From a virus, in the IMG/VR virus record IMGVR_UViG_3300021598_001044, positions 1-28,488 of that record: 28,488 nucleotides of DNA. One strand, given 5' to 3'. Under the pieces are notes generated by a model. That model was not told where the DNA came from. It saw only the letters and a program-made list of their open reading frames with translations, and ran no database searches. Below, piece after piece: positions 1-27,140 of the stretch (its first letter is position 1; every line of letters begins with the position of its first letter). The translations under genes and the position numbers were made by a program.

Positions 1-644
1 CCCATCTCAATACTTTTTTGTAATACTTGAAAATGGCGGGAGATTAAGAAAGGTTCTCCCCCATATATTTCAAATAACTCAACATTAGGTAATATAGTAT
101 TCAAATCGGTCCAAAAATTTTCATTATAATCAGGCCATTGCATTACTTGTTTTCTATCTGCGTTTACTTTTTGTCCAATATCAGTAACTACGTCAGAACC
201 ATATATATCCTTATGTTCCTTTACCCAATTACTAGAACTACCTGGGCTACAAATTCTACATTTTAAATTACATGTGTTACCTAATTTGAGGTCAAGAAAT
301 TTTATCTCACATACAGTATTTTCTGAGTTAATTCTTTCTGGTGTAAAAGTTTCGTGATTTATATTCCATCTTTTATTTTCACGTATTCTTTTACTTTCTT
401 TACCAAATTCTTCTTCCTTCCAACAGGCAGCACAGGCAGTGGGTTTTTTACCTTCTAATAGAGAAGTTCTTAAATTTCGGATAGAAGAAGAATTCCATAC
501 ATCTGATAAGGTGTCTTTACTAAGGGAAAAAAATTCTCCTGTATCCTTTGTATAAAATTCTTGACTCATACAGCAAGGTGCAACAAAACTGTCCGACCGT
601 GCCTCTAAATGCACAAATGGAAGAATACAAAATGTTTTACTCAT
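1..644 (-). CDS. Radical SAM protein with N-terminal Twitch/SPASM-like domain (partial, 3' end outside window)
   Basis: The reverse complement from ATG 644 translates without a stop to the window edge, about 214 residues. It begins MSKTFCILPFVHL and has a Cys pair (APCC) near residue 26, then a CAACWKEE motif, giving the Cys-rich N-terminal module shared by its neighbours. The radical SAM cluster motif is CNLKCRIC (CxxxCxxC), followed by SPGSSSNW and later GGEPFL, the glycine-rich motif that contacts SAM. The family cleaves SAM with a [4Fe-4S] cluster to make a 5'-deoxyadenosyl radical. The substrate is unknown. The C-terminal part lies beyond position 1. The upstream gene's stop overlaps this start by 8 nt, so translation is probably coupled. 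This is the last visible member of a six-gene tandem series. Confidence 0.9.
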   Translation of the reverse strand, partial: MSKTFCILPFVHLEARSDSFVAPCCMSQEFYTKDTGEFFSLSKDTLSDVWNSSSIRNLRTSLLEGKKPTACAACWKEEEFGKESKRIRENKRWNINHETFTPERINSENTVCEIKFLDLKLGNTCNLKCRICSPGSSSNWVKEHKDIYGSDVVTDIGQKVNADRKQVMQWPDYNENFWTDLNTILPNVELFEIYGGEPFLISRHFQVLQKSIEM

Positions 645-1875
645 GAAACATAAAACTCAATTCAGGAAATGTAGAGGTAAAAGATTCCTTTCTAATCTTA
701 TCTAGATGTTTAGTGAGGCTTATAAACTGCTCATGATTTACTGCGTCAAAGGGAGCAGTAATATAATTTTTAGCCAATTCCCATCTATCTAACATGGTCT
801 TACCACAAAGTTTATTTTTCGTGAGAAAGTCAATTTTTTCCTGATATTTTTCTGCTACCTGTAAACGAAAATCTAAAGGAACAACATTTGCTTTATACCA
901 AAGAGGATCAGTTACAATGTTTATATTCATATTATCATATGAAATAAAATTATTATCTATCATGTAATCATAGTACTCAACTAAGGTTGCAAAATTAAAA
1001 ACGCTCAACGTTACACCAATAATAAATTCGACATGTGGAGTTAATGTTTTAATATCACGAATATTTTTTTCTGCTTTGGACCAAGTCAGTCCTTTTCTAA
1101 TGTACTCCGCTCTGGGACCCCATGAATCTAAAGAAGCTAGTACAACAACTTTATCAAATTTCTTCCAATAATCACAGATATGTGTATTTTTAAATACAAC
1201 ATTAGATAAATTGGTGTTATATATCAGATTGATATTTGTTTTGTTGTGTTCAATTAAAAGATTTAAAAATTTATAGTGCTCTTCCATCAGTAAGGGCTCA
1301 CCGCCAGCAAAATACACACTTTCTATTGTAGGTATTATTTCTTCTATCTGTTCCCAAAAAATTTCCCTGGGAATATCGGGTTTAGTTACAACAACACTTC
1401 CCGCAGGTTTGCCTAAAAGAGTATTATGGTCTAATGCCCACTTACTACTAAGCTCAGGGCCACATGTTCTACACCGTAAATTACAAAAATTACTAAATCT
1501 AAAATCAACATAGGGAAGATTCATCTTCTCAACTGTGCCATCTTCTAAAGTCTCATCTACTTTATCAATGTGATGGAAAAAATTACGAGTTATGTCAGTG
1601 CGAAGGCTATTACCACCAAATTCTTCTATCTCGTAGCATCTGCTGCATTCAGGAACATATTCATCGTTTAACATTGCTAAACGATTCTTTTTCATTTGAG
1701 GTGAATTCCATAGATGCTTCAAAGAATTTTCTTTAGAAAGAACCCCTAACGGAGTTTGTGGGTCAGATGTACAACACATGTATGTGTTGCCGTTAGGCCA
1801 TGTATGCATATGTATCCACGGTATTAAACAAAATCTTTTACTTTCTTTTAATAGCTCTTTGTTAAACATGTTCAT
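637..1875 (-). CDS. Radical SAM protein, N-terminal Twitch/SPASM-like type (second of array)
   Basis: 412 aa. The N-terminal cysteine module has C16 in CLIPWIHMH, C34/C35 in YMCC, and C77/C80 in CSRCYEIEE; W56-N57 in a LWNS motif is typical of SPASM-like domains. The radical SAM motif CNLRCRTC uses C131, C135 and C138 and is followed by GPELSSKW. AGGEPLLM near residue 190 is the SAM-binding GGE motif. ASLDSWGPRAEYIRKG is a motif repeated in all full-length paralogs here. The auxiliary-cluster module precedes the radical SAM barrel instead of following it. The start overlaps the upstream gene by 14 nt and the stop overlaps the downstream gene by 8 nt. The reaction is unknown; sulfatase-maturase-like or peptide-modifying chemistry is possible but not shown. 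Confidence 0.93.
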   Translation of the reverse strand: MNMFNKELLKESKRFCLIPWIHMHTWPNGNTYMCCTSDPQTPLGVLSKENSLKHLWNSPQMKKNRLAMLNDEYVPECSRCYEIEEFGGNSLRTDITRNFFHHIDKVDETLEDGTVEKMNLPYVDFRFSNFCNLRCRTCGPELSSKWALDHNTLLGKPAGSVVVTKPDIPREIFWEQIEEIIPTIESVYFAGGEPLLMEEHYKFLNLLIEHNKTNINLIYNTNLSNVVFKNTHICDYWKKFDKVVVLASLDSWGPRAEYIRKGLTWSKAEKNIRDIKTLTPHVEFIIGVTLSVFNFATLVEYYDYMIDNNFISYDNMNINIVTDPLWYKANVVPLDFRLQVAEKYQEKIDFLTKNKLCGKTMLDRWELAKNYITAPFDAVNHEQFISLTKHLDKIRKESFTSTFPELSFMFHE

Positions 1876-3028
1876 CTAATACACTGTTAAAGGTTATGAA
1901 TTTTTCTCGCATACTTTCTATGCTAGGTTTTGACAAATGATTTTTTACATTATCGAAATCCCATGAGTACATGATGTTCCGACACTGCTCTATTATAACA
2001 CTCTTTTTATGTTCTTCTAGATGCCATGCTTGTTGAAATACTGGATCATAAACCCAGTTTATGTGTATTGGAATTTTTTCTTGATGAACTATAAAATCAT
2101 AAAATTCAGCTATATGTTCAATATTATATAGGCTAACAGTTTGTACGACACTTAATTCTATCCAGGATTCCTGTTTTAATTTCCGTAGATTTGCCAACGT
2201 TGTTTCCCACACACTATTGGTTCTGATGTATTCATTTCTTTCTCCCAAATCATCTATGCTTGCACTTATAGTACACTTCTTGAATTGTTTCCAGTAGGCT
2301 AATAATTCATCATCAACATTAGTGAGATTTAAATTGTACCAAAGTTCAATATTATTATTTAATCCGGTCTCAATGAGTTTTTCAAGATAGGAAAAATGTT
2401 TTTTAATTAATGTGGGTTCTCCTCCATTAATGTATATTCTTTTAACATTGTGTGAATGAGATAGCAAATCATCCCAGAAGGTATCACTCTCATACCATGT
2501 GCCACGTTCAATATCTCCATATTTCGTGACGAACGAAAGTTTATGTTCTAACATTTTATGGTCGCGTATCCATTTGGTACTACTTGCAGGATTACATGTT
2601 CGGCATCGAAGATTACACACATTACCCAAGCGAAGTTCGATGAATTCAAAGTCAAGGGAAATAGTACCGTCAGAGTTAGTGTGTTCTACAATATCATCAG
2701 AAAAATATCGCTCATTTTCTTCAATTCGTTTACTTCGTAGTCCCATGCGCTCATCATCATAACAGCGTTTACATGAAGCGGGTTCAACACCGTTTAACAT
2801 TTCTAAACGAACCTGACGATAATAATCACTATTCATGATTTCATTGATGCTGTTCGTGTTTAACGAAAGCCACTCAACCTTATCTCCTTGAAAATTTCTT
2901 GCTCGACTTGCTCCACCTGTGTGGTCTGAAATGCAACACAATGTACAACCACCGTGAGGATGTGTGGCCAAATGTTTCCAAGGCAATGAGCAAATTTTAC
3001 CGTACGGATTGTCTATTCCACCAGTCAT
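1862..3028 (-). CDS. Radical SAM protein, N-terminal Twitch/SPASM-like type (third of array)
   Basis: 388 aa, the shortest complete paralog. N-terminal module: CSLPWKHLATHPHGG then LCC, and CKRCYDDE. Radical SAM motif: CNLRCRTC followed by NPASSTKW. SAM motif: NGGEPTLI. Downstream there is SASIDDLGERNEYIRTN, matching the S-x-D-x-x-G...EYIR signature of its neighbours. Domain order is the same as in the others: Cys module, radical SAM barrel, C-terminal tail. Overlaps of 14 nt downstream and 32 nt upstream make independent transcription unlikely. It groups by eye with the 637-1875 and 2997-4385 genes (PW...CC signature), not with the two 516-aa copies. Substrate unknown. Confidence 0.93.
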   Translation of the reverse strand: MTGGIDNPYGKICSLPWKHLATHPHGGCTLCCISDHTGGASRARNFQGDKVEWLSLNTNSINEIMNSDYYRQVRLEMLNGVEPASCKRCYDDERMGLRSKRIEENERYFSDDIVEHTNSDGTISLDFEFIELRLGNVCNLRCRTCNPASSTKWIRDHKMLEHKLSFVTKYGDIERGTWYESDTFWDDLLSHSHNVKRIYINGGEPTLIKKHFSYLEKLIETGLNNNIELWYNLNLTNVDDELLAYWKQFKKCTISASIDDLGERNEYIRTNSVWETTLANLRKLKQESWIELSVVQTVSLYNIEHIAEFYDFIVHQEKIPIHINWVYDPVFQQAWHLEEHKKSVIIEQCRNIMYSWDFDNVKNHLSKPSIESMREKFITFNSVLDEHV

Positions 3029-4385
3029 ATAATTCTGTATCCTGTTTGTAAATATCTTCGATAGTATATAGTTCTCCGCGAACTTTATCTAATTGTCGAT
3101 GCCAATTTCTTCCATTAAAGAATTTTTCTTCGGCATCTGAAAATTGTTCCTGGAAGGTCGGGCGCTTCTTCATCTCGTTTAACGTGTTTATTAGTGAGTA
3201 GCTTTTACCTGTTGCCCGAGGTGTCATATATGCCAATAGTTCGTCAATTTTTCTATCTAGAATATGTCGTGGCCATGCAAAAGGACTCAACACAATATCG
3301 GGATGAAATGCAAACATAATTTTTGTTTCAATACGCACATTTAATTCCAATGATAAATCAAACAAATCTTTTAATGCAAACATGCCTGGTCCTGTAATAG
3401 TCAAGTCAAACAACATTCTATCTTGACCACCTGGAATTTGTAAACCTTGTTTGAAATTGTTTAACCATATATCCCATTTAATACCTTTACGAATATATTC
3501 AACAATGTCGCCCGTGCCATCAATACTGGCACACATCAACCAATCTTTAAATTGTGGGAGATAGTCATATAAGTTCTTGCCATAGTATTCCACACGACTT
3601 AAATTGCTATTATATCGAAGATAACAATTTTTTGCACTACCGTTTTTAATCATTTCCTCCAATGCCCACCAATGTATCTCATACATCAGCGGTTCCCCTC
3701 CGACCCAGTAACATTCCTCAACAATGCCGCGAGAAATGGCATCACGAAATTCAGGCTCCACAACATCAATCTGGAATTTCTGCATCTTCTCTTTGACTTC
3801 AGGAATCATGAAGGGCTGGTGTTCAGGTGTCCAGAACCCATGTTTCTTCTTTTCAGCCTCCCAGGATGAACTAAGCTGTTCACCACACATTCTACATTTG
3901 AAATTACAAATGTTAGAGTACCGATAATCAAATGAAATGGGTTCCATAGTTGTGAATCCTGTTTCATCCGTCTTGGTAAATGCCTCTTGAATCTTGTGTT
4001 GAAATAACGCACCCGTGAACCATTTACGATAACTACTAACACTCAAAATGTCATCGTTACATACATCACACTGAGGGATACGTTCACCTGCCATGAGTTT
4101 TTTACGAATATCCTTCATGTACTCACTATTCCAGTGTTCCTTAAGTGACACAGGATTGAAATCATCTGCTGATGTTTTTGATGCTTTTACTTCACCATAT
4201 CGTTCATCATTTGATGCATCAATGTATTGTTTTTGAAAACTATGTTCCTCACGGCTGGCACAACACAACCTACGTTCTCCTTGCGGGGAGATGTAGGTGT
4301 GTGTCCAAGGTGCCATACAAAATACTTTATTTGGACTCTCAGGATCCAGCTGGCCATGTTGCCAGATTGGAAGAATCTTACTCAT
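2997..4385 (-). CDS. Radical SAM protein, N-terminal Twitch/SPASM-like type (fourth of array)
   Basis: 462 aa. A short N-terminal extension precedes CMAPWTHTYISPQGERRLCC and CDVCNDD, the cysteine module. The radical SAM motif is CNFKCRMC followed by GEQLSSSW. VGGEPLMYE is the SAM-binding motif, and ASIDGTGDIVEYIRKG matches the paralog signature. An insertion between the radical SAM cysteines and the GGE motif makes it longer than the previous two. Its stop overlaps the next gene by 32 nt and its start overlaps the upstream gene's stop by 8 nt. It probably comes from ancient duplication within a phage cluster, since similarity to its neighbours is now mostly confined to motifs. Function unknown beyond radical SAM chemistry. 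Confidence 0.93.
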   Translation of the reverse strand: MSKILPIWQHGQLDPESPNKVFCMAPWTHTYISPQGERRLCCASREEHSFQKQYIDASNDERYGEVKASKTSADDFNPVSLKEHWNSEYMKDIRKKLMAGERIPQCDVCNDDILSVSSYRKWFTGALFQHKIQEAFTKTDETGFTTMEPISFDYRYSNICNFKCRMCGEQLSSSWEAEKKKHGFWTPEHQPFMIPEVKEKMQKFQIDVVEPEFRDAISRGIVEECYWVGGEPLMYEIHWWALEEMIKNGSAKNCYLRYNSNLSRVEYYGKNLYDYLPQFKDWLMCASIDGTGDIVEYIRKGIKWDIWLNNFKQGLQIPGGQDRMLFDLTITGPGMFALKDLFDLSLELNVRIETKIMFAFHPDIVLSPFAWPRHILDRKIDELLAYMTPRATGKSYSLINTLNEMKKRPTFQEQFSDAEEKFFNGRNWHRQLDKVRGELYTIEDIYKQDTELYDWWNRQSVR

Positions 4386-5928
4386 TGGCTCCTAACTCAT
4401 CCTTGAGGGTATTCCATCCATGAGATGTATCTTCATCATATCCTGCCGTAGTGGCAGGATCTCCTGCCATGTCATGTATAACATTTAATTCCTTACGATA
4501 CCGATTATTCTTGATTTCATCTTCTGTTGGCACCGGAACATCAATACTATCAATGAAGTCTACAAATTCCTTCGGAAATGTTTCACGGAAATTTTTTCCT
4601 CGACGCACATCATATTGTAAGTAGAAATTTTTGAAATCATTATACAACATGTCCTTCTCGGCAGTATTTTTATGTGGTGTGTCAACACTATCAAGATAAT
4701 CAATTAGTCGCTCCACATGAGCTTGCTCCCATGGGCTTAATAGTGTGAGACCGTTCATATCCTTCTCTCCTTTCACAAGAACAGCATCAAGCCAAATTCG
4801 AAGTTTATCACGGAATTTCTCCTTCATGTCTTTGGGCAGTACAGCTGCACTTTGAAATGATGGGAAACGAAGAATGTTTAATGACATGTTCATGTACTGA
4901 CGACCATATTTTCTCTTGAACTCAAACATATCATCCATAAATTCTGTGATTGATGATAAACACAGGCTGTTAATGGTCATCATCATATGTAAACTTTCAA
5001 GATTACCCTCAGAAATTAACCGATGTAAGTTGTTCTTCCATTCCTCATATTTCATACCATCACGAATATATTCGGAATGTTTACCCACTGATTCATTTGA
5101 AGTGTAAATTTGAAAACGAGGTACATGATGACTAGCCTCAATCAACTTGTCCAGTGTTTCTTGTTTTTTCGGTACAAGATTTGAGTTCATGGCAAATCGC
5201 ATATTTCTACCACGTTCCGGATTTTGCTTGAACCAATCAAATAACTTCCAGACTGACGGTGCCATCAAAGGTTCGCCGCCTGTGATACGGATTTCTTCAA
5301 GATTATCTGCCAAATCTGATTCCCACCAACGCCAAAATGCCTTGACATACGGATTCTCATCCTCGTGACGATATCCTTGAGCCCAGGGTGCAACATCAAT
5401 GAAATGTCCTCGTCCATCACTTACAATATTTCTATATGGACCTAAAGTTTTAATGTCTTTCACCCAGGTTGTTGAGAAGGCAGGGTTACAATATGAACAT
5501 GCAAAATTACAAGTCCGTTCAAAAGAAATTTCTAGTGTACGAAGCGTAACATCATCCTGCCAATTCATTGTACTGGCACGAAGAATGTCCGCATCCTTGT
5601 AAATTTCTGTTTTGTATACTCGGTCAGAGACATTGTTTCTTCCGATATCTTCCACCTTCCAACAATACTCACATTCTGCTGGGCGTGTACCTTCTTGCAT
5701 GTACTTACGCATTAGCTTTTTATGTTTTGTGTTGTGAATGGCAGAAGGATTTGCTTCCAATTCTGCGACATCAATGTTATGACCAGGAGGATGGTGACAA
5801 CTTGTAGTCTGTCCATGTCCCAACCAAATGGTTGCATTATACCATTTGGCAGCACAGAAACTTGGGCTGACACTATCAATCATTCGTTTCTTGAATTCTA
5901 AGAAGTTTTCATCTGAACGTCTAGTCAT
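4378..5928 (-). CDS. Radical SAM protein, 516-aa subtype A (fifth of array)
   Basis: 516 aa. The N-terminal module differs from the preceding four: CAAKWYNATIWLGHGQTTSC followed by HHPPGH, then CEYCWKVED. The radical SAM motif is CNFACSYC followed by NPAFSTTW. TGGEPLMAP is the SAM motif, and SNESVGKHSEYIRDG replaces the SxDG signature with SNES. With its 516-aa upstream neighbour it forms a subtype marked by AKW, SC(H/Y)HPP and a long C-terminal region ending in a KNFRETFPKEF-like segment. The stop overlaps the next gene by 8 nt, and the start overlaps the upstream stop by 4 nt (ATGA). Substrate unknown. The HHPP motif after the second cysteine may affect auxiliary cluster ligation, but this is inference. 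Confidence 0.93.
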   Translation of the reverse strand: MTRRSDENFLEFKKRMIDSVSPSFCAAKWYNATIWLGHGQTTSCHHPPGHNIDVAELEANPSAIHNTKHKKLMRKYMQEGTRPAECEYCWKVEDIGRNNVSDRVYKTEIYKDADILRASTMNWQDDVTLRTLEISFERTCNFACSYCNPAFSTTWVKDIKTLGPYRNIVSDGRGHFIDVAPWAQGYRHEDENPYVKAFWRWWESDLADNLEEIRITGGEPLMAPSVWKLFDWFKQNPERGRNMRFAMNSNLVPKKQETLDKLIEASHHVPRFQIYTSNESVGKHSEYIRDGMKYEEWKNNLHRLISEGNLESLHMMMTINSLCLSSITEFMDDMFEFKRKYGRQYMNMSLNILRFPSFQSAAVLPKDMKEKFRDKLRIWLDAVLVKGEKDMNGLTLLSPWEQAHVERLIDYLDSVDTPHKNTAEKDMLYNDFKNFYLQYDVRRGKNFRETFPKEFVDFIDSIDVPVPTEDEIKNNRYRKELNVIHDMAGDPATTAGYDEDTSHGWNTLKDELGANE

Positions 5929-7475
5929 CTATTGTATGCCTCATGTTTACATTCTAAAAAGAATTGTTCGTATTCTGGGAAGGTTTTCACAAAATTTGTA
6001 TTTCTTCTCTTATCGTGTTCTTGAATGAAACGATAAAAGTTTTCTTTATTGTCACGAAGTTGTTGACTATCTATACCTTCCTCCATCAAGGCTAGATTAC
6101 GCTTCAACTTTAAAATTTCATATGGCTTGAATCCCGTGAATGTCTCGGAGTAATCTTCACCCTGAACATTGTCTTCCATGAATTTAATGATATCCTGTAT
6201 TTTTTCAACACCTTCCGGTCCTGCATTTTGAATCATGAACCATGTGGGATATCGAAGAACTGGAATATCAAACCAAATTCTCTGAAATTTCTTTTTTACA
6301 AAAGGAGGATGTACAACACCGTGTGTGGGAGCAACTTCTACAACATAATCTTGTTGGTGCTTACCTCCAAATTCTTCGCGCAGGTCTAGGATCATCTGTA
6401 AAAACTGTTTCAAACTAGGAATACTGAGAATATTGAATGTATTGATGAAACTTACACTTGTATGTCGTGTTTCTCTCAAAAACGTTCTCACATTATTCAG
6501 TAATCTTGGAAATTCCATACCATGACGCATATACTCAGCTTGCTCACCATAACCATCACAACTCACAAATAACATGAAGTGTTTGAAGGCAGATTGAATA
6601 TACCAGTTGTTATTCGTTTCAGGATTTACGTTGTGTGTATCTTCAAAAACACGGATGGTTTCCATGTCTTTAACTGTGCTCATGAATTTTTCAAATAATT
6701 CTTGACGCGGAGGACACATGTTAGAAGTAATGGATAACTCTATCTGTCCATGGGGGTGATTGTTAACATAGTCTAGAACCTTATAGGTATTGGCATCCAT
6801 TAAAGGTTCGCCGCCCGTCATTCGAAATACACGGAGATTATGATAAATTTGTGGCCACCAGTCCCAAAATGCCTGAACATACGGATTATCTTTCTGTGCA
6901 ACGTCCAAAGGCATCAAATTCATATTTTCTAACGCCTTAACATCATTGTGTTCAAAATTTTTCAATGCATAGGGACCAAATGTTTTGACTTCATCATGCC
7001 AGGTGGTACTTAAATGCGGGCTGCAGTACATACACTTGAAATTACAGGCTTGATTGAAGTTTACCTCAACATATCTTGGCGACACATCCCATTCAGCCCC
7101 ATTTTTCACAACCTCATCAAATACAGGTGCAGCCCACCATTCACTACTTCTATAATGACGGTCGCTCATATGCCCCTCTACACCTCCGCCGGGTGCATCT
7201 TCCATTTTCCAACAATAAGAACAACCAGCAGGACGTTTTCCCTCCATCATCATCCGTCGTTCTTCAATTTTTTGAGGTGTATTATGTAACACACCCGGAT
7301 TCTTTTTCAAAAGTTCAACCGGGATGGAATGTGTGGGCGGGTGATAGCAACTCTGTGTTCTTCCTTGAGGCAAATGTAGAGAAACCTGAAGCCATTTTGC
7401 AAGACACATTGAGGAACTTACACCATTCAATTTTTCACGCATTATTTCTGCGCTATTATGATATTCTATAGTCAT
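5925..7475 (-). CDS. Radical SAM protein, 516-aa subtype B (sixth of array)
   Basis: 516 aa, equal in length to its downstream neighbour and clearly paralogous to it. N-terminal module: CLAKWLQVSLHLPQGRTQSC followed by YHPPTH, then CSYCWKMEDAPGGG. The radical SAM motif CNFKCMYC is followed by SPHLSTTW. TGGEPLMDA is the SAM motif, and VSCDGYGEQAEYMRHG is the EYIR-type signature. The C-terminus carries KNTNF-like and TFPEYEQFF elements also seen in the other 516-aa copy. The start at 7475 has no clear Shine-Dalgarno sequence and follows a 35-nt gap after the methyltransferase, so expression probably depends on read-through from upstream. Substrate unknown. Confidence 0.93.
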   Translation of the reverse strand: MTIEYHNSAEIMREKLNGVSSSMCLAKWLQVSLHLPQGRTQSCYHPPTHSIPVELLKKNPGVLHNTPQKIEERRMMMEGKRPAGCSYCWKMEDAPGGGVEGHMSDRHYRSSEWWAAPVFDEVVKNGAEWDVSPRYVEVNFNQACNFKCMYCSPHLSTTWHDEVKTFGPYALKNFEHNDVKALENMNLMPLDVAQKDNPYVQAFWDWWPQIYHNLRVFRMTGGEPLMDANTYKVLDYVNNHPHGQIELSITSNMCPPRQELFEKFMSTVKDMETIRVFEDTHNVNPETNNNWYIQSAFKHFMLFVSCDGYGEQAEYMRHGMEFPRLLNNVRTFLRETRHTSVSFINTFNILSIPSLKQFLQMILDLREEFGGKHQQDYVVEVAPTHGVVHPPFVKKKFQRIWFDIPVLRYPTWFMIQNAGPEGVEKIQDIIKFMEDNVQGEDYSETFTGFKPYEILKLKRNLALMEEGIDSQQLRDNKENFYRFIQEHDKRRNTNFVKTFPEYEQFFLECKHEAYNR

Positions 7476-7510: not shown

Positions 7511-8125
7511 TCACTTCACACCTATAATCATAAAACGAGTAAATTGTTTACAATCTAAAGATCCAGTCATACGAACATTCATTAGAATGAACGGCGCATA
7601 AAATTCTTCCAACGTGTCTACACAATTAACATGTTCATCACAATCAAAATAGTTATTGCTTTGCAAAGCAATAACAGTATTATTGGGTATTTTTCTATAC
7701 CAGGTATCAAGAATTTTTTGGTTTACGTGTTCAACTGAAGTATTAATTACCAAAGAATCATCGCTATAATCAGAAAAATTTTCCATTTTTTCTGTGATAA
7801 AGTTTATTCTAGAATCATGATTACATAATGCAGCTCCTATTGCTGCACATTCAGGATCCTGGTCAATAGAAAAAACTTTCACATGGGGATATGTATCCAC
7901 TATCATTTGTGATAGAATTCCGTACCATCCCCCGAATATGTATACGTTTGAAAAATTTTTAGTGTTGGTATTACAAAGATTTTCCACTAACCAAACCTTA
8001 CTTTTAATTTGGCTCTCCCAAAAATTTTCTAAAATACGATATTGTTTAGAAGAATCATGTTGATAGCTACGAATAACATTCATCCATTGAATGATTCTTT
8101 CAGGTGCTATTGTAACAGTTTTCAT
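7511..8125 (-). CDS. Class I SAM-dependent methyltransferase-like protein
   Basis: 204 aa. NVYIFGGWYGILSQMI near residues 60-76 fits motif I of a Rossmann-fold methyltransferase (GxxYG type). KVFSIDQDPECAAIG fits the acidic motif II that holds the SAM ribose. LVINTSVEHV resembles the motif IV region, where the catalytic residues usually lie. The protein is compact and has no recognisable target-recognition domain, so DNA, peptide and small-molecule substrates all remain possible. Its ATG overlaps the stop of the 35-aa ORF as ATGA. It sits at the head of the radical SAM array, so joint action on one substrate is plausible but unproven. Confidence 0.75.
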   Translation of the reverse strand: MKTVTIAPERIIQWMNVIRSYQHDSSKQYRILENFWESQIKSKVWLVENLCNTNTKNFSNVYIFGGWYGILSQMIVDTYPHVKVFSIDQDPECAAIGAALCNHDSRINFITEKMENFSDYSDDSLVINTSVEHVNQKILDTWYRKIPNNTVIALQSNNYFDCDEHVNCVDTLEEFYAPFILMNVRMTGSLDCKQFTRFMIIGVK

Positions 8126-8229
8126 GGATAAATGAATTCATCGTTATTGTTCTTTTTTTGTCTGTAAAATTTATAATCTAGCAACTTTGTGATAAGCCAA
8201 TCAACAATTTTATCTACAATTTTCATCAT
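8122..8229 (-). CDS. 35-aa peptide coupled to GMP reductase and methyltransferase genes
   Basis: A short ORF starting ATGATG at 8229 overlaps the GMP reductase stop (TGA at 8228-8226). Its own stop TGA overlaps the methyltransferase start as ATGA at 8125-8122. The peptide starts MMKIVDKIVDWLITKLLDYK and ends in a polar NNNDEFIYP tail. The first 22 residues look like an amphipathic helix. The double start/stop overlap, the same coupling seen elsewhere in the window, is the main evidence that it is translated. No family is recognised. It could be a membrane-associated peptide, a small regulator, or a substrate peptide for the neighbouring methyltransferase and radical SAM enzymes; the last is speculation. 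Confidence 0.6.
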   Translation of the reverse strand: MMKIVDKIVDWLITKLLDYKFYRQKKNNNDEFIYP

Positions 8230-9236
8230 CGCACCGTATATTGCTCCAAAGAGCGGTTAAGGACATTGTTTACTTGGATGAATTGTGCCTTTTCAGACAT
8301 TTCCGAGATATTTATCGCGTCAATATAGGCACATGTTGAACGAATTCCGCCTAAAATGTCAATAACAGTGTGTTCTACTAGTCCCTTGTATGGAATTTGT
8401 ACGACACGCCCCTCGGAAGCGCGGTAATTTTTCACTTGATTGTGCTTTTGTTGAGCTGCATGGCTGCTCATGCCGTAAAAAGTCACTTTTCCATCACGAA
8501 TTTCTTGTTCCGACTCATCATGGCCGGCAAAAATACTGCCTGCCATCACCATTTGTGCTCCTACGGCCAGTGCTTTTGAGAAATCACCAGGAAAAACACA
8601 CCCGCCGTCGCTCTGAACGCCGCCTCCTACGCCTTCAGCAGCAGGAACACACTCCATGAGAGCAGAAAATTGCGGATAACCCACACCCGCAACACGCCGT
8701 GTAGTACATACAGCACCGGTTCCAATGCCCACGCGCGCTAAATCTGCGCCTGACAGGATCACACGCTCAACTGCCTCAGGTGTAACTACGGTTCCTGCCA
8801 TGATGAAGGCGTCAGGTATGCTCTCGCGCACACGCGAAACGAAATCATAGAAGGTGTTCATGTAACCATTCGCCACATCAATGACAATTTTCGGCTTCAA
8901 TCCCTTGTTACGCATATATTGTGACACATCCAACGCCTTACACAGGTCATCATCACTCATACCAATTGTTAAGAAGGCATGAGAGATATCTTCTTGCACC
9001 ATCCAATCATCTAACATGTGATGTTTTGTAATGGCAGTAAACATATCAAACTTCTTCAATGCGCGATGCATACTAAATGTACCGACACCATCCATATTGG
9101 CAGCAATGATGGGGACACCCGTGATGGATGTACCCCACTTGCCTTGGATTGTTGTAGTCACATCTACCTGACTACGTGATGTAATGTCAGAAAATTGTGG
9201 CACAATTAAGACATCATCAAAATCCAACTTGACCAT
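8226..9236 (-). CDS. guaC: GMP reductase
   Basis: 336 aa, the usual length for GMP reductase. It converts GMP to IMP and ammonia with NADPH. The IMPDH/GMPR barrel is evident from LDFDDVLIVP at the N-terminus, PIIAANMDGVGT, the active loop GIGTGAVCTTR with catalytic C177, and the phosphate-binding DGGC and AGSIFAG regions. FYGMSS and YRASEGRVVQIPYKG match GMP reductase rather than IMP dehydrogenase, and there is no CBS insertion. It lies leftward of the DsbA-like gene with a 1-nt gap and overlaps the 35-aa ORF. With the PurA gene at 13817-14839 it would recycle guanine nucleotides toward adenine nucleotides in the infected cell. IMP dehydrogenase activity is the less likely alternative. Confidence 0.92.
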   Translation of the reverse strand: MVKLDFDDVLIVPQFSDITSRSQVDVTTTIQGKWGTSITGVPIIAANMDGVGTFSMHRALKKFDMFTAITKHHMLDDWMVQEDISHAFLTIGMSDDDLCKALDVSQYMRNKGLKPKIVIDVANGYMNTFYDFVSRVRESIPDAFIMAGTVVTPEAVERVILSGADLARVGIGTGAVCTTRRVAGVGYPQFSALMECVPAAEGVGGGVQSDGGCVFPGDFSKALAVGAQMVMAGSIFAGHDESEQEIRDGKVTFYGMSSHAAQQKHNQVKNYRASEGRVVQIPYKGLVEHTVIDILGGIRSTCAYIDAINISEMSEKAQFIQVNNVLNRSLEQYTVR

Positions 9237-11256: not shown

Positions 11257-11348
11257 TATCTCTTTCTGCGAATATTGCGTGCTCGACGCTTTTTGCTACC
11301 AACCTTTCGCCGGCCTTTACGTGGACGGTTCTTGTGTGGGTGTGGCAT
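11256..11348 (-). CDS. 30-aa extremely Arg/Lys-rich protein
   Basis: ATG at 11348 overlaps the sulfotransferase stop as ATGA, and the ORF ends TAA at 11258-11256 (TAATG with the next gene). The peptide begins MPHPHKNRPRKGRRKVGSKK and ends RRARNIRRKR; about half its residues are Arg or Lys, with two early His and no acidic residue. The composition suggests nucleic-acid binding, like protamine or very small ribosomal proteins. No family is recognised with confidence. An AGGAGG-type ribosome-binding site (AGGAGGAATG) immediately precedes the start and supports translation. Confidence 0.62.
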   Translation of the reverse strand: MPHPHKNRPRKGRRKVGSKKRRARNIRRKR

Positions 11349-12040
11349 CATTCCTCCTGTTTATCAGTTGAATTATTTTTTAAAGTTTCTGGATATAGAA
11401 TTTCAAAATCTCCAGAATATAGAGGTTGTAGTATTTCAACAATCTTTTGAAGAAGAACTATATTATCTCTTGAAAGAATAGCATTTTTATTAAAACTCCC
11501 CGTATGCCATTCAAAAAATTTATCATGTATAACATGAGACAATGAGGTGATATTCACTATACGGTATTTTTTTGGGTCACCTTTTGTGTACTTGAAATAA
11601 TTTATTAGTGGCACCGTATGGGTATCATACTGTAGTAAATCATATAATTCATAATCCTTATATGAGGAAAGAAAATTATATGCACTTGAAATTAAATCAG
11701 GATGTTTGTTGAAAGATAATTTTAGAAATGCTTCTGAATATAACTTATCATTTGTTAAATTATATTTAAGATTACTAGCATCTACTTTATCCCTGTAGAC
11801 GAATACATTATACCAAGCCATAAATCTATCAACAGGATCTCTATAAATGAAATATCTTTCTTTTATAGAAAGGTCATCTATTAACTCATTAGATGACTCA
11901 TCACGTATAGCCAATTGTTTATATCCCTTTTTATTAAAAAAATTTTCTAAAAAAGTGGATCCGCACTTATTGGCATATACCCACAATATACCTCGAGGTA
12001 TAGAAAAATTTCCGAAAAAAGAAGGAAGTGTCTGATCCAT
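11348..12040 (-). CDS. Sulfotransferase family protein (PAPS-dependent type)
   Basis: 230 aa. VYANKCGSTFLENFF (residues 21-35) is the 5'-phosphosulfate-binding loop, like the PKTGTT/PKCGST motif. YFIYRDPVDRFMAWYNVF (63-80) is the 3'-phosphate-binding motif (RDPxxRxxS/A-x-Y). The size fits the compact sulfotransferase_2 group. Such enzymes move sulfate from PAPS to carbohydrate, lipid or protein hydroxyls. The acceptor cannot be read from the sequence; phage-modified host surface glycans are plausible. It sits in the same polycistron as a CysC-like kinase, which could make its PAPS donor. The stop overlaps the Arg-rich ORF as ATGA. Confidence 0.8.
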   Translation of the reverse strand: MDQTLPSFFGNFSIPRGILWVYANKCGSTFLENFFNKKGYKQLAIRDESSNELIDDLSIKERYFIYRDPVDRFMAWYNVFVYRDKVDASNLKYNLTNDKLYSEAFLKLSFNKHPDLISSAYNFLSSYKDYELYDLLQYDTHTVPLINYFKYTKGDPKKYRIVNITSLSHVIHDKFFEWHTGSFNKNAILSRDNIVLLQKIVEILQPLYSGDFEILYPETLKNNSTDKQEE

Positions 12041-12187: not shown

Positions 12188-12320
12188 TATAACTCTCCGT
12201 GTTAGGTAATCCGCTATACTCACAAATTTCTTCTTGTTTTCCAAAGATTCTATCCCAATTGTCATTGTAGATATTTTTATCTACACTTAACGGTCTGGGT
12301 GCATCTCCTTTACCATTCAT
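12102..12320 (-). CDS. Conserved phage protein, MNGKGDAPRPLSV type
   Basis: 72 aa. The N-terminus MNGKGDAPRPLSVDKNIYNDNWDRIFGK resembles a short protein I recall as widespread in T4-like and marine phages (MNGKGSKPRP...NWDxIFGK). Its role is unknown. Start 12320 overlaps the QueC-like stop by 4 nt (ATGA). The C-terminal half is polar and acidic with a single terminal Cys. Its last 86 nt are shared, in another frame, with the 44-aa ORF. Confidence 0.75.
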   Translation of the reverse strand: MNGKGDAPRPLSVDKNIYNDNWDRIFGKQEEICEYSGLPNTESYNASKRSATYTGEHPRIDEDGNRIEQEPC

Positions 12321-12832
12321 AAATTATTCCTCTCAAATGCCCATGTTCTTTCAACACAACCAATACATTTACTGCAATGTGATATTTTATCTATGAAACA
12401 ACTATGTGTCATATTCAATAATTCTAATAATCCTTCATTTTTGTACATCTCAATGATTCTATCTTTTTGTAATCCTTTAAAAGGTAGAACTATTTTATTG
12501 TTATTTAAATATTCGCGTTTAGGTAAATGGTCCATATGTTCATTGCTGCCAATATATAACATATCAACTTCCACCTTTGCTAAATGTAGTGCCCATCTAA
12601 TAAACGTTCTATCCTTATCTTCTTTTGTATTCTTCACAGGGATTGTAAAAGGAAAATTCACACTAACATTATTATTTTCATTTATATATGTTACTATGTT
12701 TTCTATTCTGTCTAAGTTAATGGAAGGGTCAAGTACAGTATAAAGTTGTAACACATTATCTTCTTTAGACAATCGGTTCAACAACAAAGTACTCTCAACC
12801 CCTCCCGTAAAAAACAATCCAACTTTCATCAA
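12317..12832 (-). CDS. QueC-like PP-loop ATPase (7-cyano-7-deazaguanine synthase-like)
   Basis: 171 aa, shorter than the roughly 230-aa bacterial QueC. TGGVEST (residues 9-15) is the PP-loop pyrophosphatase motif, with Glu where SGGxDST enzymes have Asp. YIGSNEHMDH is in the expected mid-domain place. C145, C153, C156 and C159 (HSC...HCSKCIGC) followed by ER and AF form the QueC-type zinc site. QueC turns 7-carboxy-7-deazaguanine into preQ0, used for queuosine tRNA or deazaguanine DNA in some phages. I see no FolE, QueD, QueE or DpdA here, so the substrate may differ. It overlaps both neighbours by ATGA. Confidence 0.78.
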   Translation of the reverse strand: MMKVGLFFTGGVESTLLLNRLSKEDNVLQLYTVLDPSINLDRIENIVTYINENNNVSVNFPFTIPVKNTKEDKDRTFIRWALHLAKVEVDMLYIGSNEHMDHLPKREYLNNNKIVLPFKGLQKDRIIEMYKNEGLLELLNMTHSCFIDKISHCSKCIGCVERTWAFERNNL

Positions 12833-13047: not shown

Positions 13048-13820
13048 TACAATCCCATCTCCTTACGCACGTTAGTTGCCGAGATGGATTCTGTTTGGGC
13101 ATCTAGATGAATTTGTTCCACCTTGTACCCAACATCTCGCCCATAATACACACCGGTGATGTTAGGAAGATAATAGATGTGATACCGTCCTTCATACTTG
13201 TCGCGCAATTTTTCATCAATGAAATTTTCAACTTCATATGAAGTAAACGGATTCTTTGCATCCGTGCCGTGAGTGTCACGGATACCAATCAACACCTGCC
13301 CTTCCTTTTCCAAGATGGTTTCAAACAACTTCACATGCCCATCATGGAAGGGTTGAAAACGTCCAATCATCAATCCTGTGGGTGCCTTCCAATTGAACAC
13401 AGGCCTCGGAGCAAACGTCTTTTCAATCTTGGCAACAATGTCATCTGTCTGAACATTTACATCGCCCCAAGCTGTGATTTCAACATCAACAAAATCTGGG
13501 CGAATAAACACCTTATTGGTATCTTCAAATCGTCCTGCCTCAATGGTGTTCATGAACACGACGAAATCAGGTTCAAATGCCCAGCGCGTATCTGGTGTGG
13601 GGCATACAAAATCAGCAACACTATATTCCGTGTTGGCTACATGTGATAAGTCGCGCATGCGTGAAGCCTGACGAATTCTTCCTTCTTCTGAAAAGTCCCA
13701 ATCATTGAACATCTTACGCACTTCATCGGCATTGAAATATGCCGCCTTGAGCTTTTCAGCAAGCACCTTTGCCAAGGTGGTCTTGCCTGAACCAGGTAAT
13801 CCCATAACTAAAATTTTCAT
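13047..13820 (-). CDS. CysC-like kinase fused to HxGH-type nucleotidylyltransferase
   Basis: 257 aa from ATG 13820, chosen because it overlaps the PurA stop as ATGA and has GGAG just upstream; an in-frame ATG 24 nt earlier lacks this. Residues 1-140 form a P-loop kinase: GLPGSGKT (7-14), FNADEVRKMF and FSEEGRIRQASRM resemble adenylylsulfate kinase (APS to PAPS). Residues about 145-257 form a nucleotidylyltransferase: GLMIGRFQPFHDGH with HDGH at 159-162, and ISATNVR (246-252). The second domain looks like an NMN/cytidylyl-type enzyme rather than classical ATP sulfurylase. The fused protein may make an activated sulfate or another nucleotide donor, perhaps for the sulfotransferase in the same operon. 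Confidence 0.82.
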   Translation of the reverse strand: MKILVMGLPGSGKTTLAKVLAEKLKAAYFNADEVRKMFNDWDFSEEGRIRQASRMRDLSHVANTEYSVADFVCPTPDTRWAFEPDFVVFMNTIEAGRFEDTNKVFIRPDFVDVEITAWGDVNVQTDDIVAKIEKTFAPRPVFNWKAPTGLMIGRFQPFHDGHVKLFETILEKEGQVLIGIRDTHGTDAKNPFTSYEVENFIDEKLRDKYEGRYHIYYLPNITGVYYGRDVGYKVEQIHLDAQTESISATNVRKEMGL

Positions 13821-14839
13821 ACTGTCTCCGGTGAAGTTGACCAAACAATGCTATTCAGTTTATACTTATATTCATTACGAATTGTCCTTTCTACAAATCG
13901 CCTAAAATCATCAACATTACGGAACATATGATTTGTTCCTTGATGCACAACACCAAACACACCCACTACTTCCAATACATCCACCTTGTTGATAATTAAA
14001 TCTGTAACGTCATTCACATGCATGGCTTGAATGACATCATCAAGATGTAACCAGCGCACCTGTCGCTTTCTGCCTGTCGTGGCGCCAAATTCTTGCCCCA
14101 CTTCTTGAATGGATGCAAACACAGCATCATCTTGTGTGTAATGTGTTTTAAATCCTGAGTAGGTTTCATATGCCTTCATGACACCATACACATTGCGCCA
14201 TGTGCGCGGAGCAATACCATTCAATGCCACGGCGCCTGTTGTGCAATGTGAACTTGTGACATAGGGATAATCTCCCCAATCAATGTCAATTTGAAATCCT
14301 TGAGCTCCCTCACACAATACAGTTAATTCACGCGGCATCTGAAAAAAATATTGGGCAACATCAATTACGCCATAGGGCCGGGTGAAATCATTGAATGTAA
14401 CTAAATCACCCAGACGATTTCCTGTACGGGCATACTTGTCCCGATAGGTGGGACCAATGCCTTGGCGTGTTGTCCCAATTTTATTATCTTGACCATCTTC
14501 GGCAATATGGGCGGGTGCCGTGATGTGACAACGCTTATCAACATAAATGTTGGTTTCAAATCCCAATTTCTTCAACATGTTAATTTCTTCAACCAAGGCT
14601 GGAATATTTACGACACACCCAGGACCAATAATGCAGGGAATGTTGTAGAACACCCCCACAGGAACTTGATGTGTCACCACCTTTTGTCCTTCATGATAGA
14701 TGGTGTGTCCGGCATTGGCGCCGCCATTGAAACGTAAGACTACATCATAGTCACGCTGTTTTGCCAAATGATGTGACACCTTACCCTTTCCTGTGTCACC
14801 TGCCTGTAAATCAATTACAATGTCTGCATGTTTAATCAT
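13817..14839 (-). CDS. purA: Adenylosuccinate synthetase, short archaeal/phage type (PurA/PurZ-like)
   Basis: 340 aa, close to archaeal and phage enzymes and about 90 aa shorter than bacterial PurA. The P-loop is LQAGDTGKGK (residues 11-20): the catalytic Asp of GDEGKG is kept (D15), but Trp and Glu of WGDEGKG are Ala and Thr. FNGGANAGHT keeps the catalytic His. Further on are IGTTRQGIGPTY, EGAQGFQIDIDWGDYPYVTS and TTGRKRQVRW, the IMP and GTP sites. PurA joins IMP and aspartate using GTP. PurZ, used by 2-aminoadenine phages, has (as I recall) Ser for that Asp, so retained Asp argues for ordinary IMP use. It lies between the Fe-S carrier and the CysC-like gene. Confidence 0.9.
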   Translation of the reverse strand: MIKHADIVIDLQAGDTGKGKVSHHLAKQRDYDVVLRFNGGANAGHTIYHEGQKVVTHQVPVGVFYNIPCIIGPGCVVNIPALVEEINMLKKLGFETNIYVDKRCHITAPAHIAEDGQDNKIGTTRQGIGPTYRDKYARTGNRLGDLVTFNDFTRPYGVIDVAQYFFQMPRELTVLCEGAQGFQIDIDWGDYPYVTSSHCTTGAVALNGIAPRTWRNVYGVMKAYETYSGFKTHYTQDDAVFASIQEVGQEFGATTGRKRQVRWLHLDDVIQAMHVNDVTDLIINKVDVLEVVGVFGVVHQGTNHMFRNVDDFRRFVERTIRNEYKYKLNSIVWSTSPETV

Positions 14840-14858: not shown

Positions 14859-15179
14859 TTATGCCGAGAAACTTGACCCACATCCGCATCCGCCTGTGGC
14901 GTTGGGATTTTTAAATGTAAATCCGGATTCCGTCAATGTCTTGACATAATCCAATTCAGCACCTTCAAGATATTGCGCTGAGAAAGGATCAACAATGATT
15001 TTCACATCGGCGGCGGCATCAATGAGCACATCATCATCGGCAGCAACATCTTCCAACATGAGTGTATATTTAAATCCTGAACATCCGCCGGGCATGACAC
15101 CCATGCGATAATGTTGAACATCATGCTCCTTGTTGGCACGGAGTTCTGTGATGGCGTTATCAGTTACGTGAATATTCAT
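14859..15179 (-). CDS. A-type iron-sulfur carrier protein (IscA/ErpA/HesB family)
   Basis: 106 aa, the standard length. The three ligands are visible: C33 in MPGGCSGFKY, and C98 and C100 in GGCGCGSSF near the end, as in IscA/ErpA. VDPFSAQYLEGAELDYV is the family's other landmark. These proteins carry Fe-S clusters or iron to apoproteins. ATG 15179 overlaps the stop of the zinc-finger gene (TAATG). In this genome it could help mature the six radical SAM enzymes at 1-7475 (inference). Confidence 0.93.
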   Translation of the reverse strand: MNIHVTDNAITELRANKEHDVQHYRMGVMPGGCSGFKYTLMLEDVAADDDVLIDAAADVKIIVDPFSAQYLEGAELDYVKTLTESGFTFKNPNATGGCGCGSSFSA

Positions 15180-22536: not shown

Positions 22537-22839
22537 GTAGGCCTCAGCAACATCCTCGCGTTTATATCGCGGTCCCCAATAGGGGGTGATGTCATAGCGT
22601 GCATTATGGCATTCTGCGCAAGTGTACAGCTTTTCATGTTTTCGCAAAATCACGCTCCCATCCTTTCTGCGATGCCCCGTATGCTGGGCCTCATGCACCC
22701 CGCAGTATTGGCACATGGGGCGCCCACCTGGGCTGAGCCTGACCCGGGATTGTAACCGTTGCTTGCGCGCCTCGCGCTCTGCCGCGAGTAGAGCCTGGGT
22801 GCCCGTGGGGGGCTTGGGTTGTATGCGTCTACGCATCAT
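22534..22839 (-). CDS. 101-aa protein with four-Cys zinc finger
   Basis: Starts ATGATG at 22839, right after the preceding gene's stop. The N-terminal third is basic (MMRRRIQPKPPTGTQALLAA, then EREARKQRLQSRVRL). MCQYCGVHEAQHTGH and LYTCAECHNARY form two CxxC pairs about 32 residues apart, with His residues between, a likely zinc-binding fold. It may be an HNH-type relative that lacks the catalytic His/Asn, or simply a nucleic-acid-binding finger. Function unknown. Confidence 0.72.
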   Translation of the reverse strand: MMRRRIQPKPPTGTQALLAAEREARKQRLQSRVRLSPGGRPMCQYCGVHEAQHTGHRRKDGSVILRKHEKLYTCAECHNARYDITPYWGPRYKREDVAEAY

Positions 22840-22840
22840 G

Positions 22841-23023
22841 TTACCAATCGTTCCTGAGGCGTTCCTGCTCATCCTCATATTCCCACCGGGCGTCCCAGTA
22901 TTCCCGGGCGGTGAGCCCCGCCTCATTGCTGGGGCCATGATAGTAGCCGCCCATGAGGGACTGATCCTGCTGCGCCTGCTGCGCCTGCTGCGTCTGTTCG
23001 GTTGTGTTGTCGTTTTTCATCAT
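22841..23023 (-). CDS. 60-aa Gln-rich acidic protein, probably from a leaderless mRNA
   Basis: Starts ATGATG at 23023, 5 nt after the -10 box of P8 (the second ATG is 8 nt after). It begins MMKNDNTTEQTQQAQQAQQD, then has the more ordered LTAREYWDARWEYEDEQERL segment, ending RNDW. The first six codons are nearly the same as in the 61-aa gene upstream (MMKND), suggesting local duplication of promoter and start. Function unknown. Confidence 0.65.
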   Translation of the reverse strand: MMKNDNTTEQTQQAQQAQQDQSLMGGYYHGPSNEAGLTAREYWDARWEYEDEQERLRNDW

Positions 23024-23028
23024 ACTGT

Positions 23029-23057
23029 AGTATACACTAGGGGGCACCATTTGTCAA
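23029..23057 (-). promoter_or_regulatory. Family promoter P8 (leaderless gene 22841-23023)
   Basis: Reverse strand TTGACA (23057-23052), spacer AATGGTGCCCCCTAGTG, TATACT (23034-23029). The TGA stop of the upstream gene (23056-23054) lies inside the -35 box. ATG is 5 nt after the -10 box. Confidence 0.85.
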
Positions 23058-23239
23058 GCCCTGTGCATCTTCACCGTGTAATCCTGCAACAGCTCGCCTA
23101 GATCCGTGAAACGCATTTCATCATCCATGATGTCGGCGATTGCCGTTGCCAGCATGCGCGTGATTTGCGTTTTTTCTGCCTCGGACGCCTCGGGATGGAA
23201 CGTCAGCTCGAGGCGGAGTTCGGTGTCGTTTTTCATCAT
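23054..23239 (-). CDS. 61-aa hypothetical protein, probably from a leaderless mRNA
   Basis: Starts ATGATG at 23239, 5 nt after the -10 box of P9. It reads MMKNDTELRLELTFHPEASE and ends DYTKMHRA-like (LLQDYTVKMHRA). The strand LRLELTF followed by a helix AEKTQITRMLATAIADIM suggests a small alpha/beta fold. It ends in the TGA that is also part of P8. Function unknown. Confidence 0.66.
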   Translation of the reverse strand: MMKNDTELRLELTFHPEASEAEKTQITRMLATAIADIMDDEMRFTDLGELLQDYTVKMHRA

Positions 23240-27082: not shown

Positions 27083-27140
27083 AACTACTAAGGTTTGCGA
27101 AAAAGGCGCTTTGTTCTATTAATGTTTTTTCAGAAATCAT
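27075..27140 (-). pseudogene. Detached N-terminus of the lipase gene (21-codon ORF in another frame)
   Basis: ATG 27140 overlaps the stop of the upstream large gene as ATGA, the junction style used throughout. It reads MISEKTLIEQSAFFANLSSC-V. Skipping one base at the A5/T5 run (27100-27104) converts it to MISEKTLIEQSAFSQTLVVV and fuses it in frame to the lipase. This is a single-base frameshift, natural or a sequencing artefact. Confidence 0.6.

Follow-up and report, generated by a model that had tools for sequence, protein, structure and literature searches.

The first 7,475 positions of a 28,488-nucleotide stretch of viral DNA (IMG/VR record IMGVR_UViG_3300021598_001044; the whole stretch is referred to as the window) are filled by an array of six radical S-adenosylmethionine (SAM) enzyme genes, which all lie on the minus strand and follow each other in the transcription order A to F. 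Genes A (5925..7475; 516 amino acids, aa) and B (4378..5928; 516 aa) code for enzymes with an SC motif in the N-terminal cysteine module (SC-type), A representing the subtype of the first position and B the commonest one of the second position in related arrays. Genes C (2997..4385; 462 aa), D (1862..3028; 388 aa), E (637..1875; 412 aa), and F (1..644; truncated at the end of the window, which shows 214 aa of it) code for CC-type enzymes. Successive genes overlap by 4 (A/B), 8 (B/C), 32 (C/D), 14 (D/E), and 8 bases (E/F), as would fit translational coupling. Each of the six proteins exceeded the whole-protein cut-off of 170 bits of NCBIfam model NF033640 (N_Twi_rSAM, twitch domain-containing radical SAM protein), with 301 (A), 308 (B), 323 (C), 333 (D), 395 (E), and 201 bits (the part of F in the window). 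With scores of 200.6-394.6 bits and E-values from 4e-59 to 5e-118, this family match is not due to chance, and it upholds the assignment to N_Twi_rSAM made in an earlier, sequence-only reading of this DNA.

The cluster motifs of the six enzymes are intact. Indeed, the CxxxCxxC motif, the GGEP motif, and four N-terminal cysteines, claimed earlier as common to all copies, were invariant in a six-way alignment, in which identity to E amounted to 24-32%. Residues C24, C43, C85, C88, and C144/C148/C151 of A were kept in 30 of the 30 aligned A rows, and residues C25, C44, C86, C89, and C140/C144/C147 of B in 25 of the 25 aligned B rows. These seven invariant cysteines, four N-terminal and three belonging to the radical SAM motif, would be enough for one auxiliary and one SAM cluster. 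The auxiliary module is located N-terminal to the radical SAM domain, as SPASM family PF13186 was matched inside residues 6-110 in C, D, E, and F (residues 23-110 in C); A and B gave no PF13186 match, and both contain the four invariant N-terminal cysteines. The radical SAM family PF04055 was found above its gathering score in B, C, D, and E, while A scored 23.7 against 29.5 and the partial F was unmatched.

The array extends beyond the window, as is evident from a 124-kb record (G001) with a nearly identical region (locus L086). This region contains the complete gene F (L086:14540-15736; 398 aa; NF033640 355 bits), an SGNH-like gene, the gene for a seventh N_Twi enzyme (G; 224 bits), a carbamoyltransferase gene, and a DNA-ligase-like gene, the carbamoyltransferase label being derived from Pfam and the SGNH-like and DNA-ligase-like labels being given by eye. 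The number of six copies is therefore an undercount, the whole 124-kb record giving eight NF033640 matches. The complete F reads EYQR, which restricts the EYIR/EYMR signature proposed for the complete copies. The phage origin suspected before was borne out by a gene for a T4-type major capsid protein Gp23 in the same record (E 8e-143), which indicates a T4-like phage. This record also contains a transfer-messenger RNA predicted by ARAGORN (L177:3774-4126, about 22774-23126 in G001; marked tmRNA*), whose tag ends in ALAA. In a further relative (L169), a sulfotransferase-like gene, a methyltransferase-like gene, A-B-C-D-E-F-G, and a further N_Twi-like gene follow each other with no gene intervening. 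Between L086 and L169, nonsynonymous divergence (dN) was 0.04-0.19 for A-G, and synonymous divergence (dS) was 1.6-2.7 for B, C, F, and G and saturated, hence not computable, for A, D, and E. Judged against this one relative, the array is under strong purifying selection. Furthermore, CxxxCxxC was retained by all 763 copies of confident class and 380-620 aa (repeats counted), and GGEP by 732 of them. Together with the low dN, this motif retention rules out recent decay and supports functional copies instead of the decayed pseudogenes that would have refuted the earlier reading.

Three IMG/VR scans queried with the array proteins (80, 79, and 12 distinct rows, one shared) yielded at least 170 viral loci, which overlap one another and form 140 groups by shared DNA. 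Each locus contained at least two N_Twi-like open reading frames (ORFs) according to a profile built from the six proteins, and 882 such ORFs, repeats counted, were present in 176 sources, including the window and five pieces of it. A whole-record search of 29 records with NF033640 gave 4-21 matches per record, at least one being above the cut-off in each; these records, which may be fragments, were picked from loci with N_Twi genes and thus match by construction, so that the copy number alone is informative. N_Twi arrays are common among uncultured viruses. Searches of 50,697 phage records by tblastn with five of the seven enzymes (A, B, C, E, and F) gave no match for A and B, and cultured phages were accordingly rejected as ready models for these two. 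With C, E, and F, the relatives retrieved were all distant (21-27% identity) and came from Vibrio phages and one single-cell virus fragment of marine origin. Vibrio phage K566 contains three clustered copies, two above (202 and 193 bits) and one below (154 bits) the NF033640 cut-off, and Vibrio phage QD01 contains two distant relatives (QD01_267 and QD01_278; 132 and 134 bits), both below it. In the latter phage (L258, 3714-7377), two radical SAM genes are grouped with QueC-like and nicotinate phosphoribosyltransferase-like genes, and a gene annotated as heptosyltransferase lies near this group.

Both subtypes were confirmed and apply generally. When the copies were sorted with a simple motif rule, 329 of 347 copies of the A, B, and G classes were SC-type and 500 of 522 copies of the C-F classes were CC-type, 25 more being unclassed; these counts include repeats and low-confidence classes. 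Hence, the SC/CC split recognized in the sequence-only reading stands, although the accompanying PW motif does not hold throughout, F having PF. The gene order, when sought across virus genomes as that reading had proposed, proved to be conserved in many aquatic viruses. Dereplication reduced the 131 loci in which a gene of a family named c1 precedes at least two N_Twi genes to 106. An A-type copy came first in 102 of these dereplicated loci and a B-type copy second in 69. Likewise, A was ahead of B in 86 of the 87 dereplicated loci having both, and the first B was ahead of the last C in 77 of 77, the class labels in these position counts (low-confidence ones included) being assigned regardless of position. 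Adjacent same-strand pairs overlapped or touched in 474 of 532 cases. The E and F types varied more between loci, both in number and in place. In a FastTree phylogeny of 165 rows, the classes were nearly separate (1-6 changes each; for A, B, and C 2 changes each against a shuffled mean of 18-22) and the bacterial rows were scattered (15 changes); this separation is partly by construction, since each label, here as in the position counts, was taken from the best BLAST match among the copies of the window, and long branches were flagged by FastTree. Distinct subtypes in a conserved order favour a putative multi-step pathway, one of the two possibilities suggested before.

The arrays keep a recurrent gene company. 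A common layout consists of structural-looking genes, families c4, c3, c2, and again c2, a small gene, c1, A, B, and the remaining copies, with a carbamoyltransferase gene often last. Family c1 was present in 136 of 171 sources and located immediately upstream of the first radical SAM gene in 98 of the 131 c1-led loci. Its protein had no Pfam or PHROG match, but its model (predicted local distance difference test, pLDDT, 91.4) matched glycosyltransferases and other GT-A-like nucleotidyltransferase folds, a Leptospira glycosyltransferase being the best match (Z 9.9 over 137 residues; root mean square deviation 3.1). In addition, D63 and D65 were invariant in 25 rows, and c1 is predicted to be a GT-A-fold protein. 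Family c2, often paired, was present in 121 of 171 sources and matched glycogenin (GT8; E 8e-8). Family c5 was rejected as a known glycosyltransferase, as it gave no convincing PDB profile match (one row, E 0.86). Gene company was further assessed in 22 of the 29 records searched completely, 15 of which contained Gp23. Carbamoyltransferase PF02543 was found in 20 of these 22 array-bearing records versus 3 of 14 cellular controls, c1 in 19, and c2 in 19 (one weak). Nucleoside diphosphate (NDP)-sugar epimerase PF01370 was present in 19 of the 22 (18 above cut-off) and DegT PF01041 in 13, and both were present in all 14 cellular controls too.

In the window itself, the array is preceded, 35 bases upstream of A, by a gene on the minus strand coding for a class I methyltransferase-like protein (family c18; 7511..8125), with a sub-threshold match to Methyltransf_25 (16.3 bits; cut-off 27). 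This family occurred in 21 sources and lay immediately upstream of a radical SAM gene in 14 of them. Further upstream, also on the minus strand, lies a gene (family c31; 11348..12040) without NCBIfam, Pfam, or PHROG match, whose product is presumably sulfotransferase-like, given P-loop-like and RDP motifs recognized by eye; in L169, the c31 gene adjoins the methyltransferase-like gene and the array A-B-C-D-E-F-G. Thus, methyltransferase-like, sulfotransferase-like, and carbamoyltransferase genes are found near the array of the window's phage in place of c1 and c2. An A-type Fe-S cluster carrier is encoded at 14859..15179 (minus strand; PF01521, E 1e-19). As such a carrier was found in only 3 of the 14 array-bearing records tested for it, a dedicated Fe-S supply within the system was rejected; possible support of the array by this carrier would not be general.

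Homologues also occur in bacteria. One genome scan yielded 70 loci, of which 59 with an N_Twi match were kept; set aside were six loci without such a match and five loci (L191, L195, L199, L205, and L206) from metagenome-assembled genomes (MAGs) assigned to Pelagibacter, Rickettsiales, and Betaproteobacteria. The latter five combine N_Twi genes with gene sizes resembling the viral layout, and are probably phage contigs in bacterial bins. Nine contigs (L197, L201, L202, L204, L207, L210, L218, L219, and L221) belong to a single Elusimicrobia MAG (CAIRTQ01, bin-0981) and together carry 33 N_Twi-like ORFs according to the profile built here, most of them long. In a Bacteroidetes locus (L203), an N_Twi gene (389 bits) heads a gene run and is followed by a carbamoyltransferase gene and, as judged by eye, by glycosyltransferase- and sugar-nucleotide-type genes; the gene sizes of L213 and L234 match those of this locus. 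Similarly, an Oligoflexia locus (L231) holds N_Twi genes amid, by eye, ABC exporter, sulfotransferase-like, and APS-kinase/CysN/CysD-like genes. Gene fusions are particularly informative. A 1637-residue ORF of a Rhodocyclales locus (L248) combines Sulfotransfer_3, TPR, Methyltransf_11, SPASM, and Radical_SAM, its end scoring 218 bits, and four scanned Elusimicrobia ORFs consist of TPR repeats followed by an N_Twi part, in both cases according to the profile built here and not NF033640. Among the 25 commonest Pfam families of each set, counted over genes of 150-750 aa, 91 immediate neighbours included Carbam_trans (4), PhyH (4), other radical SAM (4), GDSL (3), and adenosine deaminase (3), and a background of 91 of the 163 distant genes included PhyH (5), Epimerase (5), and UDP-glucose dehydrogenase (3). 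The bacterial loci thus hold sugar genes overall, but as the distant genes likewise include them, the immediate neighbours are only weakly distinctive.

The interpretation that fits these results best, with a probability of roughly 55%, is that the paralogous radical SAM enzymes of the array form an ordered set and tailor a phage-encoded glycan, a sugar substrate being proposed from the gene company. No function is given in the description of NF033640, in line with the statement in the sequence-only reading that the function of the family is unknown; the gene company in viruses and bacteria now narrows it towards glycan tailoring. Several observations weigh against this interpretation, next to the weakly distinctive bacterial neighbours. 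First, Foldseek by itself left c1 without a match under E 0.001. Second, the 124-kb record contains no c2 match, and its sole c1 match is weak (E 3e-25) and located about 50 kb from the array; similarly, two other array-bearing records (G005 and G016) are without c1 or c2 match and a third (G025) is without c1 and has a weak c2 only. Third, neither the SGNH-like nor the sulfotransferase-like gene of the window's phage has a Pfam match, and carbamoyltransferases also act on small molecules. Lastly, the array of the 124-kb record is distant from the Gp23 capsid gene, which counts against a modification of virion proteins as well.

In radical SAM enzymes, hydrogen is abstracted by a 5'-deoxyadenosyl radical, which arises from SAM cleavage at the first cluster, and electrons are passed by auxiliary clusters. 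In the case of glycan tailoring, each array enzyme would carry one [4Fe-4S] cluster at CxxxCxxC for the cleavage of SAM, and the resulting radical would take a hydrogen from a sugar, either a free NDP-sugar or a glycan residue. The four N-terminal cysteines would hold the Twitch cluster, which would take up an electron or give it back, with epimerization, oxidation, or deoxygenation as possible outcomes. The CC-type copies have an additional cysteine, which may serve as hydrogen donor. The glycosyltransferases, methyltransferase, sulfotransferase-like protein, and O-carbamoyltransferase may build and decorate the same glycan, which could be situated on the tail fibre or on the surface of the infected cell. 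A more tentative extension, for which the odds are well below even, is a radical glycan assembly line in T4-like phages of natural waters, in which an operon of at least seven N-Twitch enzymes acts on one growing glycan, A first, then B, and C later, each making a different radical change; the SC- and CC-types would take care of redox and epimerizing steps, and the virion or the infected cell would display sugars not otherwise known. The conserved order and the sugar context in viruses and some bacteria turn the function of N_Twi_rSAM into a testable proposal, and the array offers several uncharacterized radical enzymes that are probably near one another in one pathway. If glycan tailoring is indeed their role, uncultured phages spend many kilobases on chemically altering their own surface or that of their host, which is relevant to adsorption and exclusion.

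The strongest alternative, albeit an unlikely one, is that the array modifies virion or other proteins, at side chains or backbone, as do the maturases of ribosomally synthesized and post-translationally modified peptides (RiPPs) and anSMEs, the substrate being encoded by c4 or by the small gene that separates c2 from c1. Many Twitch/SPASM enzymes act on peptides, and in many viral loci c4 and other structural-looking genes (by eye) precede the array at a distance of a few genes; however, c1 and c2, where present, are closer to the array than c4, and polysaccharide-type genes occur in the two bacterial loci examined closely. The model of B (mean pLDDT 88.2), a radical SAM barrel preceded by a Twitch part, had BlsE (7vob) and DesII (8hzv) as best PDB matches (Z 12.8 each), with the peptide-modifying anSME (Z 12.6) and SkfB (Z 12.4) tied within 1 Z. 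The fold can therefore not choose between sugar and peptide substrates; the sugar enzymes among the best matches count for the glycan, and the tie with peptide enzymes counts against it and for the peptide. At the level of sequence families, none of A-F reached the cut-off of any RiPP radical SAM maturase model of NCBIfam, D scoring 21.0 against 300 for SkfB (TIGR04403) and 18.7 against 340 for PapB (NF047865). Neither did A-F reach the cut-offs for viperin (NF038283; best 24.7 bits against 180) and BlsE (TIGR04466; B 14.6 bits against 400). Less probable still is a diversifying cassette kept against varying hosts, made up of diverged duplicates whose functions overlap and do not amount to a stepwise pathway. 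The range in copy number per record and the variable number and place of E- and F-type copies would fit such a cassette, and radical SAM cassettes are the stated difference between the host recognition clusters of two related pelagimyophages in the part of that report consulted (PMC7029224). The relative order of A, B, and C is nevertheless kept in nearly all loci having them, and these three types form nearly separate groups in the tree. Finally, a role in nucleotide or DNA-base hypermodification, suggested by GMP reductase-, adenylosuccinate synthetase-, and QueC-like genes near the array in the window and by the ability of carbamoyltransferases to act on bases, is very improbable and was rejected for DNA as the main explanation, because adenylosuccinate synthetase was found in 2 of the 22 array-bearing records only and many other viruses have the same ordered array beside structural-looking and glycosyltransferase genes.

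Those three genes are grouped in the window (GMP reductase-like, 8226-9236; QueC-like, 12317-12832; adenylosuccinate synthetase-like, 13817-14839, with a PHROG match to 2-aminooxy adenylosuccinate synthetase) and possibly form a base-modification set unrelated to the array. The window also codes for a 440-aa protein with long low-complexity stretches (Ser/Ala; Lys/Glu/Ser-rich) at 27137-28459. T4-type late promoters have the motif TATAAATA; as a sign of late expression they were rejected, the window containing 1 exact site versus 1.49 expected by chance.

Radical SAM genes have been reported from marine phages before. The marine T4-like genome TARA_ERS488813_N000010 encodes an A-type Fe-S carrier along with 12 members of the radical SAM superfamily, which were read in terms of Fe-S cluster use (Nishimura 2017, PMC5332604); an N-Twitch family, a gene order, or a sugar context was not found in the available part of its description, and the carrier is infrequent in the records studied here. 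In pelagimyophages, radical SAM cassettes occur in the host recognition cluster, a region with tail-fibre and glycosyltransferase genes (Zaragoza-Solas 2020, PMC7029224). As far as that paper could be consulted, they are mentioned as cassettes only, with no family or role, and they lie in the tail-fibre region, whereas the array of the window's phage is far from the capsid gene. In addition, radical SAM genes were prevalent in Tasman Sea viral samples according to the part consulted of a study off Australia (PMC7150976). The ordered array, the two subtypes, the sugar proposal, and an N-Twitch assignment or a function for such arrays were not found in the open-access literature searched, partly available as it was; hence, the family name and the abundance of radical SAM genes in marine phages were known before, and the order, subtypes, and sugar context appear to be new.

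NF033640 names the family of the array enzymes without a function. A-G all score above its cut-off, and the matches of the complete proteins span almost the entire profile; the present results add to that name multiple copies per virus record, a conserved order, and two cysteine subtypes. BlsE and DesII, which act on sugars, are the best fold matches of B but share 14-16% identity with it, indicating the radical SAM fold only. With the Twitch/SPASM enzymes BtrN and anSME, the array enzymes share an auxiliary cluster domain beside the radical SAM barrel; this domain is C-terminal in BtrN and anSME, whereas it is N-terminal in the array enzymes.

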